Below are positions 9,076 to 17,096 of a DNA stretch of 64,000 nt, piece by piece. The notes under the pieces are model-generated. The model made no database searches, was not told the origin of the DNA, and worked only from the letters and a program-made list of their open reading frames with translations. Both the position numbers and the translations under genes were made by a program. How positions within the stretch are numbered: position 1 is the stretch's first letter; every line of letters starts with the position of its first letter. Source of the stretch: Clavelina lepadiformis (lineage: Eukaryota; Chordata; Ascidiacea; Aplousobranchia; Clavelinidae); assembly GCF_947623445.1 (NCBI RefSeq), contig NC_135242.1, positions 3,534,001-3,598,000 on the forward strand. Reading direction: 5' to 3'.

Positions 9076-11455
9076 CAGGGTGGTCCAAGACTGCGAACAT
9101 GAAGGGCCACATTAGGGTCTGAGAAAAACTTCACGGGCCGCATAGTGAGAAATGATAACGCGTTGCTGAAAGTAGAAACGTTGTTAACTACTGTTCGCAG
9201 GCTATGAACATTAACAAATCTTGTCGCTTACAAAATACAGTTGTATGAATGAAATGAAATGAATGAAAGGAAAGGACTGAGTTTGCTGTTCTGATCGACC
9301 TAATGTTTTGCTGCACGCCTAACTCACTTTTTAATCTCTGCTTGCGACTCTGCGTTTTTGCTTTTGCATATGGTGTCGATCTCTGCTTTAAATTCAGTGG
9401 TCGACAGACGTAAGCAGGCATCCAGGGTTTCATCAGCCATTCTGTTCCGTGTGTCGCTTTTTAATCGCTTCATAATGGAGAAAGTGCTTTCACATATGTA
9501 TGTGCTACCAAACATGGAGCATATCTTCAGTGCGAAGTCGTTTAATCGTGGAAACTGTTCGTTGCTTAAAAGCCTCCAAAAGGCGTCGTAACGCTCATTC
9601 TTACGTGAAAGAAGAAAAGGGTCTGACTGCAATTCACATAGTTCTTGCTGAACGTAAGATGGTTGGGATTCTATAACTATTTCCATTGGATTGTTGAAAA
9701 GCTCCATTTGTGCTTTCAGCAAATCAAAGTCAGCGAATCTGTCGTTAAACTCATCGATGATGTCACCAATTTTGTTAGAAAATGCAGAAAAATCGATACT
9801 TTTTCTTTCACCAAGTACTTCACTGCATGCAGGAAAGTGGGTAGCATCATTCCTTTGCAAAGAAGCCTTAAATAGCACAAGTTTCTTGCGAAAACCTTCA
9901 ATGTGTCCAACCAATTGAGAAATATTTTGTTTCTTACCTTGCAGTTTCATGTTTAGGATATTGAAGTGATTACTAATGTCTGTCAAGAACGCCAACGAAC
10001 CAATGAACTTGTCATCACTCAACTGAATCTGGTATGTCTCGGTCGTCCCTTCTATCTCATTCTGGAGAAAATTTAGTATTTCTTTTCGCAAAGAAAAGAA
10101 ATGTTTCAATGTTTTGCCTGCACTTAACCATCGAATTTTTGAGAATAGTGGAACATCTTCATATTCTGCACCCACATCTTTTAAGAACTGGATGAATTTT
10201 CTATGTCTCTGGGCTCTGTTTCCCCCTTTGATGATGTTGACTATATTCGTCACACTAAGCATAACATCACTCATCTGCAAAACTTTGGCACATAGTGCTT
10301 CTTGGTGAATGATACAATGCAATGTTGGGCAGTTCACTCCATGATCTTTTAGAATGCCAACTAGTCCTCTCTTTCGTCCTGTCATTGCCCTGGCACCATC
10401 TGTTACAACACATGCACACTTCTCAAATCCTCCATAAGCATCAACGACAGACGCAAGGCTGTTATATATGTCGATACCTTTTGTAGTTCCACGAAGTGGA
10501 GATATCTTGAGTAGTTTTTATCAATAGTGCGAATGAAAACCAAAAGCTGGGAAACGTCACTGATGTCAGTACTTTCATCCAAGGCTAAAGAGAAGTACTT
10601 GCATTGTTGAACAACGTCTTTCAATTGCACAGTCACGTTTTCGCTCAATTCTGCCACTCTTCTTGCAACGGTTTGATGAGATAAAGAAACGTTTTCAAAT
10701 TTTTTGGCTATTTTTTTATCTCCAAAGGAAAGGGCCATCTTAATCGCACACTCTTTTACAATCTCCCCGTCTCGAAAAGCTTTTCCATGTTTTGCGAGCG
10801 TTAGAGCAACTTCGTATGAAGCTTTAAGGTCTGCAGTTGAATCGGGTTTGGAAAAACCAATAATCATTTTTTTTTGCTTGGAATAATTGCCCTTTAACTC
10901 TTTCAAAATTGCTTCCCTAGAAGTTCCATGGTATTGGCCATATTTTTTCTCATGCATGGTGCTGTAATGTCGCTTTAAATTAAACTCTTTAGGCACTGAA
11001 ATAACTTGCAAGCAAACCAGACACTGTGGTTTACCATTGCTATTGGCAAAAAAATACCTTTCCTCCCAAGTAGAATTGAACTCTCTGTTTTCCTCTGACA
11101 CTTTTCTTTTGACACTCATGCTTTTAGTAAACTTTTCCCCTTGACTAAATAAACGAGTTGCAGCTAATTTACAACCAAATTCGAGAGTGTACTCTGCGCT
11201 AGCAACAAAAGCAAAATATCAACGCACGTTTGTGTCGTCACAAACCGACATTGTTCCCTCATAGTTACCTATTGACCCGATTATGCACGACTTATTTAGG
11301 GTTGTGGCGAATGTAATGTATTTATAAAGCGTAGGTGTATTTTTAAACCTTGGATTTAGCACTGATAATTCCGGCATCCACAAAGTGTTCGCGGGCCGCA
11401 CAAAAGCTTCACGCGGGCCGCATGCGGCCCGCGTGCCAGGGTTTGGACCACCCTG
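9076..11455 (-). mobile_element. hAT transposon (Buster-like), full length, transposase broken once
   Basis: The 2380-bp element is bounded by identical 13-bp inverted repeats, CAGGGTGGTCCAA, and a perfect 8-bp duplication GCCTAGAT (9068-9075 and 11456-11463). The ends also share a GGGCCGCA-rich subterminal segment. The single gene is on the minus strand. The TA centre of the target (nnnTAnnn) and the transposase type, related to the ZBED5/GTF2IRD2 kind of domesticated genes, fit the Buster branch of hAT; that assignment is inference. The exact duplication and identical ends suggest a fairly recent insertion. It sits only 20 bp beyond the target duplication of the MITE at 8617-9047. Confidence 0.92.
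9324..11119 (-). pseudogene. hAT transposase, split by one frameshift/deletion
   Basis: Two long frames meet: 11119-10403 (N-terminal, 238 residues) and 10385-9324 (C-terminal, 353 residues, whose true reading extends upstream to about 10500). The first has a BED-like zinc finger (CLVCLQVISVPKEF, then H and H five residues apart) and the first catalytic Asp in FSLALDESTD. The second has the next Asp in ACVVTDGARAMTG, a CH-type motif (LHCIIHQEAL), and the Glu with the hATC dimerisation region (STYICESTFSIMKRLK). Around 10490-10510 the frame changes between RYLHFVEL and PLRGTTKGIDIY; compared with relatives about ten residues also seem missing there. No other break was seen, so the copy is young but cannot encode a full enzyme as it stands. 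Confidence 0.85.
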
Positions 11456-12196: not shown

Positions 12197-12370
12197 GTTG
12201 CGTCCAGTGCAGGATTAAGGTGGATGCTATTGATGCTGCAGCATTAGGCCCATTCCTGAAATAGGCCCAGACGAAAACAGACGTGAATTTTCCGGACGCT
12301 GAACAGTTTTCCTTTGCTTAATTAACCCACAAATAATTCTTATTATGAAATTTGTAGTCCGACTTTCGCA

Positions 12371-12435
12371 CGCCTAGGCACAGTGTTACGCCTAGGCACA
12401 GTGTTACGCCTAGGCACAGTGTTACGCCTAGGCAC
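12371..12435. repeat. 18-bp tandem repeat, about 3.6 copies
   Basis: The unit cgcctaggcacagtgtta starts at 12371, 12389, 12407 and (partial) 12425. The full copies are identical, so the array is recent or homogenised. The unit contains the palindrome CCTAGG. It lies in the left arm of the 4.47-kb hAT. Confidence 0.95.
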
Positions 12436-12436
12436 G

Positions 12437-13421
12437 TAAGATAAAGCAAGATTTTGGCATAGACTACTTATTTAAGATGAAAAATTATAACACTTTTCGA
12501 GCTGTTTCAGGGCCCTTCATTACTTCAGCCGCAGATAAGATGCACGGCTTTATTAACTCTTCCCCAATCGTGTATGCTTTTTTTGGTTTTAACTATTCGT
12601 AGAGAAACTAGATAGGATTCATGAAGAAAGGATTTTTCGGTAGTCGTCATCTTTTCATTTGCTTTTTTTAATCGTTCATATCAGAGAATATTCGTCCAAA
12701 ATATTCAAGTGGCTTGCCTTCAAGATTGTTGTGCTTTGAATGAAAGTGACGAACAACTTTAGAAGGTTTCATAACGTCATTTGGCAGAATTTGGGAGCAC
12801 ACCAAACATTAGGGCCGTGACGATTGTTCACTACCCGGAACTATTGTAAAACCAAGCTCCAAGTATTTTTATTGTATTGCCTGACAAATTCCCCTTTTCG
12901 TTTCTTACTTCCCTCTGTGACACTCAACTTATCTGCATATGCCCTTTTCGTAGTTTACATTTGCACCTACTGATACTTGGTTCATTTCCATTTTGAGAAT
13001 TATTTGTTTCAGAAGTCTTAGTTTTTTCCTTCTTGTTAAAATACACTTGTTGGTTCGTTGATTCCATATTAATCCTTCTGTAGTTTAACAGGACAAGCTA
13101 TTGCAGCATCTGAAAAGTGAAGAATGACCTTGTATTACAAAACTTTTTGAAAGCTAGACGCAGTTTATGACGAAACAATCATAAACGGCACAAAATCTAG
13201 GTCATCGGAAGGTTAACCTTTATTATTAAACAGTTCTGCTGTATCAACGAAGGAGAGATAGGCTATGCCAGTTTTAGCCTACTGCTGTGAATCGGCCAAG
13301 CGTAAAATGAGTTTTACAGGAAGTATCAACTTTGCAATGCTTATGATTCCAGATTAAAATTAGCTTGGCAGAAAGTAAGATACGGTACTTCGCGGACCGG
13401 CGGTTGAGAACCACTGAGTTA
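12437..13421. mobile_element. Probable nested hAT-like remnant inside the left arm
   Basis: Two segments match the MITE at 16831-17096. The first is 12448-12490 (gcaagattttgg, then tatttaagatgaaaaatta). The second is the end segment 13395-13421 (cgcggaccggcggttgagaaccactg). They are about 970 bases apart here but about 120 in the MITE, so this may be a longer relative. No matching left end or target duplication was found. A short minus-strand frame starting MESTNQQVYFNKKEK at 13067 lies inside, too short to interpret. Confidence 0.35.
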
Positions 13422-13808
13422 GGCTAAGCCTTAGGAATACATTAGGTTAAGGCAGTAAGATTAGTACTCATTATGGTTGGGAAAAGAGTTAGCAATCATT
13501 ATTGTTGAGTTCAATGTTGTTTCATTGCCGATTCACAAGCTAACACCGTGCAAACAACTGCCGGTTCACAACAAAAAATGATGGAAACCAGTGTCAGTTT
13601 ATAACAAAAAATGATGGAAAGCATTGGGGTTCACTTGGACGCTAGCGACTGCCTTAATTCTAAGACAATTGCTAATGTTTTTTTTTGCACTGTGACGTAG
13701 GCTAAATATACGGCGTTGTGTTTATTGTAACGGAAGATTTCAAGTTAATGCGATAAATTTTACGGTTCCACAATTTACAAATTTAGCTGCGTTTTGTGCA
13801 CGCTTGCT

Positions 13809-16331
13809 ATGGCGTCTCAACTCAGTGGATGGGATAAAGCGAAAAAGAAAAGGAAAGAAGCAGCAGAACAAGAAAAGCTTCTGGCGAAAATTCCAAAACT
13901 GAGTTCATACTTTGGAATGCGAGCAGCTTCGTCTCAATTGCCTGCGTCGGATGCGATTGAGAATTCGAGCGCTCCTGAAGACCAGGCCAAGCAAGATGAA
14001 CCTGATGAGGAAAGAGAGGATAAAGAGCGGGAAAGTTCAGCGGAGAGAGCAGAGGTGAAAGGAGACGCTATCACTGGCGAAGCACTGGCGCAAACGCTGG
14101 AGGATATCACCAATGATTTAGGACAGTGGGGTAAAATCAACGCTGACACTCGAGAATATTGGGCCAAGAAAGGTTCAAAACACTGCCAACACACTGAATC
14201 GATGTTTGAAGAGAGCGCCAGACAATACCTAGGTGAATCATTCCAACGTCGATGCACTAAGACCTTCTTCGTGCGTACGCATCCGCTCAATGGTGAAAAA
14301 TCCTATAGACAATGGTTGTGCTACTCGCCTTCGACCGGGAAGGTGTTCTGCTTTGCATGCAAGTTGTTCGGTGGTAATGCTGTTCAAGCAACCAAGTTCG
14401 TATCCGGCGGTTTCGACAATTGGAGGACAGGCGAATCCAGAATAAAATGGCATGAAAGCAGCGATGGTCATCGCAAGGCTATGTTGTCTTTTGCGAGCCG
14501 ACAGAGGGAGGCCGGTCGTGTTGACTACCTAGCCGCTAAACAGGTCGAGGAAGAGCGGTGTTACTGGCGCCAGATTGTAAAGCGGCTCATCGACGTTCTG
14601 ATATTCCTAGCTAAGCGTGGCCTTGCTATAAGGGGCGCGGATGAGATCATAGGTTCCCCTCATAATGGTAACTACCTTGGCATCATTGAGTTGTTGGCGG
14701 AGTACGATACTCTGCTGGCTAGCCATATTAGAAAATATGCGAACTGCGGGAAAGGTCACATTTCTTATTTGTCATCCACAATTTGCGAGGAGCTGGTGCA
14801 GCTCATGGGACAAAAGGTGCAGGACACCATCCTGAAAGAAGCCAAGAAGGCGAAGTATTTCTCTGTCTCGATTGACTCTACACCTGACGTATCACACCTC
14901 GACCAGCTAACGATTGTTATTCGATATGTTCTGCCGTTGGGTCCAGTTGAACGGTTCCTGACATTCTTGCCTATGATGAGACACACCGCTACGCACATGG
15001 CTAGCATACTTCTGAACTTTCTGAAGGAAAATGGCTTGGATGTTACTAACTGCAGAGGCCAGTCGTATGACAATGCGTCAAACATGTCAGGACGGTACAA
15101 CGGTGTCCAGGCAATTGTGAAGCGAGAATGTAAATATGCTGCTTTTATTCCATGCTGCAACCACAGTTTAAACCTGGTAGGAGACCAGGCTGTTAATAGC
15201 TGCGCTGGCTGTACCAGGTTTTTTCATTTTGTCAATGGACTATACGTTTTCCTGTCTGAATCGACATATCGCTGGCAGAAACTGAAGAATCGCTGCACAT
15301 TAACGCTCAAAGGTTTGTCTGGAACCCGATGGTGTGAACGTGCAGATGCTGTCAAAGCGCTAGTAGAAGGGTGGAAGAGCATTCAAGAAGTCCTGGATGA
15401 GCTTGCGGCAGATAAGGAGCAGAAGGCCGATACGAGAAACCAGGCCGATACGAGAAACCAGGCCGACGGATTTTCGCGCAGGATGGACGAACTTGAGACA
15501 GCAGTTATGGCGACTGCCTGGAACGATATCCTATGCCGTCTCAACAGTACGAGCATTAGCCTCCAAGACCCTACAGTCAGTCTGAATACGGCAACTAGTT
15601 TATTGGCATCACTGGTCGACACGATTCAATTTGCACGGGACAGATTTGACGTGTATGAGCAGATGGCGATCGAAAAGGTTCCTCACGGCGAATACAAGGC
15701 TGAAGAACGTCGAGGCCGTAAGCGAAAGCGAATGCCTGATGAAGGAGCTGCAAACGAAGAAAACCTCACCCCTAGGGAAACATTCAAAACCCATATATAT
15801 CTGGTCATGATCGACAGACTGTTAGCTGAACTGGAAAAGCGAATGAAGGCGTATGAGGATATATCTACAACATTCGGATTTCTTTCGGAGCTAACGTCAT
15901 TGAGCATAAAGCAGATCGAGAATAAAGCTCAAAATCTCGTTTCCTCGTATCCAGATGACTTGGAAGACACGCTGGTGGCTGAGCTCATACAGTTTGCTGC
16001 ATTTATGCGCACCCAGAAATCGGTGAGTGTGAACGAGTCAGCAGAGCTTACCATGTACAAGCTTTTGTCGTCGTTGAACCTTTCTCAAACATTTCCAAAC
16101 GTCGAGATTGCTTTGCGCATCTATCTGTGCTTGATGGTGTCTAATGCCTCCGGCGAGCGGAGCTTCTCAAAACTGGGAATAGTCAAAGGAGAGCTGCGGT
16201 CCTCGATGAGGGAGGAAAGGCTAAACATGCTGGCGCTTATGAGCATTGAACATGAGGTGCTGAGCAGCCTTGACTGCACTGACATGATCGAAGATTTCGC
16301 GCTTGCTAAGGCTCGAAAAACAGTAGTATAA
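13809..16331 (+). CDS. hAT-family transposase, TTF zinc finger / DUF4371 type, uninterrupted
   Basis: It would cut and paste its own element. The 840-residue frame is open from the ATG at 13809 (MASQLSGWDKAKKKRKEAAE) to the TAA at 16329. After a charged N-terminus comes a TTF-type zinc finger (about 130-225: WLCYSPSTGKVFCFACKLFG, later WHESSDGHRKAM). A DUF4371 segment follows (RGADEIIGSPHNGNYLGIIE) and then the RNase H-like core with first Asp in SVSIDSTPD, second Asp in RGQSYDNASNMSG, and CCNHSLNLVG. The C-terminal hATC region has Glu in NASGERSFSKL. The catalytic D, D, E are all present. A direct 18-bp duplication gives ADTRNQADTRNQAD near 15428-15463. The KRKRK cluster near residue 640 may be a nuclear signal. 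Nothing in the sequence rules out activity. Confidence 0.95.
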   Translation: MASQLSGWDKAKKKRKEAAEQEKLLAKIPKLSSYFGMRAASSQLPASDAIENSSAPEDQAKQDEPDEEREDKERESSAERAEVKGDAITGEALAQTLEDITNDLGQWGKINADTREYWAKKGSKHCQHTESMFEESARQYLGESFQRRCTKTFFVRTHPLNGEKSYRQWLCYSPSTGKVFCFACKLFGGNAVQATKFVSGGFDNWRTGESRIKWHESSDGHRKAMLSFASRQREAGRVDYLAAKQVEEERCYWRQIVKRLIDVLIFLAKRGLAIRGADEIIGSPHNGNYLGIIELLAEYDTLLASHIRKYANCGKGHISYLSSTICEELVQLMGQKVQDTILKEAKKAKYFSVSIDSTPDVSHLDQLTIVIRYVLPLGPVERFLTFLPMMRHTATHMASILLNFLKENGLDVTNCRGQSYDNASNMSGRYNGVQAIVKRECKYAAFIPCCNHSLNLVGDQAVNSCAGCTRFFHFVNGLYVFLSESTYRWQKLKNRCTLTLKGLSGTRWCERADAVKALVEGWKSIQEVLDELAADKEQKADTRNQADTRNQADGFSRRMDELETAVMATAWNDILCRLNSTSISLQDPTVSLNTATSLLASLVDTIQFARDRFDVYEQMAIEKVPHGEYKAEERRGRKRKRMPDEGAANEENLTPRETFKTHIYLVMIDRLLAELEKRMKAYEDISTTFGFLSELTSLSIKQIENKAQNLVSSYPDDLEDTLVAELIQFAAFMRTQKSVSVNESAELTMYKLLSSLNLSQTFPNVEIALRIYLCLMVSNASGERSFSKLGIVKGELRSSMREERLNMLALMSIEHEVLSSLDCTDMIEDFALAKARKTVV

Positions 16332-16830
16332 GTAAGCAGCACTAGCGCAGCATTGACAATATGCCAACGTTAAGTTGATCTGGATTAGCCTTTTCTTCAT
16401 TAACTCCGCTTTTCAGGCAATATTGGTATTGAATTGTGTTGGTGTTACATAGCCTGATGTTACTCTCGAGTTTTTACGATAACACGTCGTTATTATTGTT
16501 CATGTTCATTAAAATTTGGCTGACTGCGTCGAAAGCAATAAAGGCTCTTTGGTCGGTCTGATTACGCGTGTACGGTGGAGTCAGAGTGTCGAATGCATAT
16601 GTACCAATGCCTAGAAAAAATAGGCCTGTTTTTGCGCTGCAGCATCAGGCCCAGTTTCGTCTTAATCCGGCCCTGGTTGCGTCATAATGGTATTCTAATT
16701 CTATGGTTTTATTGTATAGAAACGAAGGCAAGACAATTTTAGTGGAATTTAAAGATGTATTATTGCGCTCATAACTATGGATGTACTATGTACATTGTAC
16801 AATAATTAACTGTTCTAAGATGTTCTAGCA

Positions 16831-17096
16831 CAGTGGTTCCCAACCTTTCTACACCAGGGGACCGGTAAAGACTTAAAAAAATGTTCAAGGACCGGCAACA
16901 GAAGATCGTAGTGAATAGGACAGATATTTCTAATCTTTTTGTTAACCAAAGTTGTCGTTGCATAACATAATGCAAGATTTTGGTATAAGCTATGTATTTA
17001 AGACGAAAAATTAGAGCAAAACGGCAATCAAATCAGCTTAAACAACCGGCAAAAAATTTACGCGGACCGGCGGTTCGGAACCACTGTTCTAGCAGA
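16831..17096. mobile_element. hAT-type MITE, 266 bp, perfect 8-bp target duplication
   Basis: Ends are cagtggttcccaacc and, on the minus strand, CAGTGGTTCCGAACC, a 15-bp near-perfect inverted repeat. TTCTAGCA is duplicated at 16823-16830 and 17097-17104. There is no coding capacity. GGACCGGTAAAG and GCGGACCGGCGG mark the subterminal regions. A related end occurs at 13395-13421. Confidence 0.9.

Follow-up and report, generated by a model that had tools for sequence, protein, structure and literature searches.

A hAT DNA transposon of the ascidian Clavelina lepadiformis that very probably belongs to a very recently multiplied family

Comparison with described hAT elements

Tol2 of medaka and TcBuster of the flour beetle are animal hAT elements with functional transposases, the activity of both having been shown by experiment. 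This sets them apart from the subject of this report, a family of cut-and-paste hAT DNA transposons in Clavelina lepadiformis, whose activity is predicted from its sequence. One copy lies within the stretch of DNA that was analysed (64,000 nucleotides, positions 3,534,001 to 3,598,000 of the forward strand of contig NC_135242.1, assembly GCF_947623445.1), hereafter the window, and is very probably a member of a family that has multiplied very recently. So recent a burst is indicated by the presence of near-identical full-length copies at unrelated sites, by five-prime ends that are near-exact and by open reading frames (ORFs) which are for the most part open. A literature search returned no paper combining Clavelina, transposable elements and hAT, and the element is best described as a very young addition to the hAT superfamily, in a tunicate.

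In PMC3942097, hAT elements are given terminal inverted repeats (TIRs) of 10-25 bp and a length of 2.5-5 kb; in the Clavelina element the 15-bp ends are alike at 13 positions and the copies are 4,418-4,471 bp long. Like the Tip group (BuT2, Tip100) described there, the element has a DUF4371 domain beside a hAT dimerisation domain, 8-bp target site duplications (TSDs) and short TIRs. However, BuT2 is a 2.8 kb element with a five-exon gene for 643 amino acids, whereas the window element is 4.4 kb with one frame of 840 amino acids. Since DUF4371 stands beside the dimerisation domain as in BuT2, the element is probably Tip-like. Hermes, a member of the Ac group, is likened to it by the RW motif and by the ERxFS of the catalytic glutamate, aligned in the second stretch of a weak match, and also by 8-bp TSDs, imperfect TIRs and subterminal sites. 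It differs in having a shorter protein and a target preference that is only partly similar.

Copies of the family in the genome

The assembly was searched at the DNA level, with 40 of 86 candidates scored, and pattern scans of both ends were added. The DNA search found 15 full-length copies, that in the window included. The scan for five-prime ends returned 25, of which 21 were exact and four had one mismatch (control 0), the inner part of the left TIR being kept in all 25 of them. At the three-prime end, 24 of 27 pattern matches were within one mismatch; the other three (three mismatches) were dropped, and the reversed control also gave three. This amounts to 24 insertions in total, with the composite L026 adding one extra end of each kind and L030 having a left end only. 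They are distributed over C1-C6, C8 and C9, with none found on C7.

Over about 4,418 bp, any two full-length copies are separated by 0-18 substitutions (mean 10.2, median 10), and each is 3-11 substitutions away from the majority sequence (mean 5.3, or 0.12%); their tree is star-like. One pair, L012 and L013, shows no difference across 4,418 bp. The two are separated by 37 kb on C1, their TSDs differ and their 1-kb flanks are dissimilar, an arrangement that a local hop would produce. Internally deleted derivatives are also young, since their main aligned pieces match the full copy at 99.4-100%. An earlier sequence-only reading of the window had suggested a live or very recently active family and had proposed searching the same assembly for copies sharing the ends and comparing their identity. 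The copies so recovered are near-identical and not strongly diverged, and together with the five-prime ends and the 11 open ORFs among the 15 full-length copies they bear out very recent activity.

Nine of the 24 insertions are incomplete or interrupted, and three structures among them can be described. L026 (G000:C2:21204537-21210168), perhaps a composite from faulty gap repair, holds a repeated left end and two deletion derivatives in tandem that have their internal junction in common, all within one TSD pair (CATGTATT). In L029 (G000:C1:7015405-7019194), an internal deletion is accompanied by an insert of 601 bp that lies between 14-bp duplications of element sequence. A third copy is split by a 20.1-kb insert (L031 4643 to L032 994; G000:C5:19450027-19470174) whose TIRs match at 96% over at least 132 bp and whose 6-bp TSD is GATGAG. 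The size, TIR and 6-bp TSD of this insert suggested a Maverick; two 4.5-kb stretches gave one frame of at least 120 amino acids with no Pfam match, so that label was rejected and the insert left unnamed.

Insertion sites

Exact 8-bp TSDs flank 22 of the 23 two-ended insertions. Joined empty-target sequences were made for 21 insertions and four were searched (window, L012, L018, L019). The L019 target lies in a repeat, where 13 of 49 matches run unbroken across the junction. The L018 target lies in a repeat found mostly on C9, where 38 of 40 matches cross the junction, 12 of these covering no fewer than 130 of the 132 bases at 97-99%, and the remaining two are the flanks themselves. As repeat copies at L018 and L019 show the uninterrupted target, precise entry into single targets is indicated; these empty targets are paralogous sites and not alleles.

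Such sites bear on whether the copies might have been made by assembly error or segmental duplication. Long identical copies are prone to misassembly, but this explanation is highly improbable, given that the copies have different TSDs, unlike 1-kb flanks and substitutions and indels of their own, that empty paralogous targets are found at L018 and L019, and that the assembly is built from HiFi data with a reported quality value (QV) of 67.4. Segmental duplication in particular is rejected by the differing TSDs and unlike flanks.

As regards the repeat into which L018 (C9:2749310-2753727) is inserted, almost all of its copies at 97-99% are on C9 (11 of the 12 best matches), and it is apparently a chromosome-biased young repeat.

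Target preference

Elements of the Buster group follow the TSD rule nnnTAnnn. The target choice of the Clavelina family was examined in 22 TSDs, L011 (no exact TSD) and L030 (one end) being left out, which gave 44 half-sites when both strands were read. G or C is found at position 1 in 32 of these, a pyrimidine at position 3 in 36 and a purine at position 4 in 34, and the combined score for positions 3 and 4 was reached by none of 5,000 draws of random flank octamers. T at position 2, as in the nTnnnnAn of the Ac group, occurs in 20 of the 44 (p 0.07). The Buster combination of T at 4 with A at 5 occurs in 6 of 44, which is below background (p 0.009) and thus at odds with the Buster rule. These p-values are rough, since half-sites of one TSD were counted separately. 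In a sister family from the same genome, described below, 14 TSDs gave 28 half-sites with G or C at position 1 in 24, a pyrimidine at 3 in 21, a purine at 4 in 20, T at 2 in 6 (no excess) and T at 4 in 5.

By these counts both families share the weak preference S-n-Y-R-Y-R-n-S, which is unlike that of Buster and only partly like the nTnnnnAn given for Hermes in PMC10368747. According to PMC3942097, the Tip group had yet to be studied for its target preference, and the 36 TSDs (22 of the window family and 14 of the sister) provide an initial view of how this hAT lineage chooses its targets.

Structure of the window copy and its transposase

The features of the window copy are as follows, in window coordinates.

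12205..16675, + strand, hAT transposon, full-length copy of 4,471 bp, with ends common to 14 other full-length copies
12197..12204, no strand, left target site duplication GTTGCGTC, 8/8 identical to the right one
16676..16683, no strand, right target site duplication GTTGCGTC, 8/8 identical to the left one
12205..12219, + strand, left TIR CAGTGCAGGATTAAG, imperfect, 13/15 positions alike with the right TIR
16661..16675, + strand, right TIR CTTAATCCGGCCCTG, which reads CAGGGCCGGATTAAG inward from the right end
12231..12242, + strand, left subterminal motif TGATGCTGCAGC, 12 bp, exact inverted match to 16636-16647
16636..16647, + strand, right subterminal motif GCTGCAGCATCA, inverted match to 12231-12242
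12370..12435, + strand, 18-bp tandem repeat, with two extra units (36 bp) relative to 14/14 other full-length copies
12435..12492, + strand, piece of a miniature inverted-repeat transposable element (MITE) of an older, unrelated hAT-type family, carried within the element
13130..13421, + strand, larger piece of the same MITE family, stopping at the MITE TIR (AACCACTG)
13809..16331, + strand, transposase ORF, 840 amino acids in a single open frame with no internal stop
14349..14471, + strand, candidate zinc-finger stretch C181, C184, H215, H221, with a weak Pfam zf-C17orf113 match at residues 168-227
14874..14876, + strand, D356, first catalytic acid (SIDSTPD), invariant with the sister family
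15069..15071, + strand, D421, second catalytic acid (SYDNAS), invariant with the sister family
15424..15441, + strand, 18-bp in-frame duplication, six residues ADTRNQ, present in 0/14 other full-length copies
16155..16157, + strand, E783, third catalytic acid (NASGERSF), aligned with the SAASERTFS motif of Hermes

The borders and 8-bp duplication proposed by the sequence-only reading are correct to the base, and its unbroken 840-residue transposase and three acids (IDSTPD, SYDNAS, NASGERSF) were likewise recovered. A chance origin of the ends is excluded, as 14 other full-length copies have the same ones. Read inward, the right TIR has the same 15 bases as the left TIR in the sister family. 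The 12-bp subterminal motif lies 26 bases in from the left end and its inverted copy 28 bases in from the right end, and the two are candidate binding sites for the transposase.

In the transposase, Pfam identifies DUF4371 (PF14291; E-value 6e-17, 62.8 bits against a cut-off of 32.1) and Dimer_Tnp_hAT (PF05699; E-value 2e-9, 37.6 bits against 21.4), while the zf-C17orf113 match falls under the curated cut-off. The dimerisation domain is present in all three aligned members. Residues D356, D421, C449 and H452 (the CxxH), W508 (the tryptophan of RW) and E783 agree with the D-D-E/CxxH/RW pattern of hATs, and the catalytic and CxxH residues are invariant relative to the sister family; D356, D421 and E783 are presumed to be catalytic from knowledge of the superfamily. 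The TIRs and subterminal motifs would be the binding sites of the transposase, whose D-D-E active site would, by the chemistry of Hermes and other hATs, cut the element out, after which insertion would follow at 8-bp staggered sites with a weak preference for S-n-Y-R-Y-R-n-S. A search of viral contigs for relatives gave none with the single protein, and 391 pattern stretches with none confirmed using a three-sequence alignment.

The window copy had been called near-pristine. This holds for its exact TSD, both ends and open ORF, but it alone of the 15 full-length copies has the two extra 18-bp units (36 bp), the 18-bp in-frame duplication and a T run shorter by one T (1 bp). In addition, residue 214 is W in this copy, M in 13 of the 14 others and I in L016 (L021, L022 and L015 being counted by DNA), and it adjoins H215, a candidate zinc ligand kept in the sister family. 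The window copy is therefore a structurally odd member and not the pristine type of its family. Owing to its own length differences and to W214 next to H215, its function is less certain than that of the family.

Coding state of the copies

The ORF is open in 11 of the 15 full-length copies, with 840 amino acids in the window copy and 834 in the ten others, and the internally deleted L023 retains an open frame of 836 amino acids. A long open ORF might also be offered by a domesticated host gene of hAT ancestry, but the chance of this is negligible given that there are 24 insertions with TSDs, that the full-length copies are near-identical and that the coding change looks neutral; for the window family it is refuted by the multi-copy insertions. 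It is worth noting that L021 and L022, at different sites, have a stop codon in common, a pattern compatible with their having been moved by transposase from another copy.

A number of results weigh against an active hAT family as proposed here. The four remaining full-length ORFs are broken, with stops in L014, L015, L021 and L022 and also a frame-breaking indel in L021, and some of the open ORFs carry doubtful changes, for example C184R at a candidate zinc ligand in L009. The 15 copies show 40 coding changes (25 missense, 12 silent, 3 nonsense), which look unselected when set against a neutral 68/28/4%, and the stop shared by L021 and L022 could instead have come from gene conversion or recurrent mutation. 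L011 is without an exact TSD, and the joined-flank search recovered only their own flanks, and no empty site, for the window and L012. At the protein level, the match to Hermes (solved structures 6dww, 8edg) has an E-value of 0.014 with the single sequence and is lost with a three-sequence profile, which gives nothing up to E 1, while single-sequence structure prediction gave a mean predicted local distance difference test (pLDDT) score of 37.8, too low to be of use for recognising the RNase H-like fold with inserted helical domain that marks hAT transposases.

The neutral make-up of the coding changes, the four broken ORFs and the nine incomplete or interrupted insertions also speak for a burst that is recent yet finished, in which the family spread fast and is now silenced or inactive, its intact copies being undecayed survivors. 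This alternative has a substantial though minority share of the probability; it is at odds with the copy pair identical over 4,418 bp, and neutral drift of single copies after insertion is to be expected in active families too. On balance the family may well be active at present, a view held with modest confidence, and less so for the window copy itself.

Sister family, captured MITE and neighbouring elements

A protein search identified a sister family in the same genome at 42% protein identity (L045-L064, on several contigs), with ten matches across the whole query. The two families are alike in their invariant catalytic residues, their TIR core (the left of the sister corresponding to the right of the window family) and their similar target preference, but the sister element is 3.1 kb as against 4.4 kb and has relics at 71-82% DNA identity. 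TSDs were exact in all 14 sister insertions examined. Four examined sister copies have ORFs of 839-841 amino acids and are 98.5-99.4% alike, so the sister family is young too, yet somewhat older than the window family.

Positions 231-288 and 926-1217 of the element match a dispersed MITE family with TIR CAGTGGTTCCCAACC. The comparison used nine of ten fetched loci, L038 being dropped for a split match. Distances from the MITE majority are 6.6% for the carried piece and 6.7-11.4% for the nine genomic copies; being as far from the majority as these, the carried piece indicates that the capture, or the captured MITE copy, is far older than the burst. This is relevant to a recent horizontal transfer, with a single element passing from another animal into the Clavelina lineage and multiplying there. 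No diverged DNA relics of the window family were detected among the 40 of 86 candidates scored, the sole diverged matches being pieces of the internal MITE, and this lack of copies of intermediate age (25 of 25 five-prime and 24 of 27 three-prime ends with at most one mismatch), when the sister family does have relics, would suit such an arrival. However, relics may be missed at that coverage, and the old MITE pieces point to an ancestor of the element in this or a related genome, which argues against arrival from a distant animal; horizontal transfer is accordingly considered unlikely.

Two other elements lie near the hAT copy in the window. A MITE at 16831-17086 (256 bp, TIR CAGTGGTTCCCAACC, 8-bp TSD TTCTAGCA) is of the same family as the pieces within the element. 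Upstream, at 9324-11218 on the - strand, there is a second, unrelated-looking hAT transposase, interrupted, with overlapping frames of 271 and 397 amino acids (zf-C2H2_12, Dimer_Tnp_hAT), around which a brief inspection showed no TIR pair.

Significance

It is conceivable, though rather doubtful, that the two sister families, each with intact members, are both active, or were until very recently, and define a probably Tip-like hAT lineage with a target rule of its own distinct from those of Ac and Buster, the 4.4-kb family deriving from a single, very recent founder with most of its insertions still polymorphic between individuals. As a chordate hAT family at about 0.1% divergence with many open transposases, the Clavelina element offers a good natural case in which to follow a transposon as it spreads. 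For this genome, a second-haplotype assembly (GCA_947623165.1) and RNA reads (ERR10908613) have been published and allow that spread to be tested directly.

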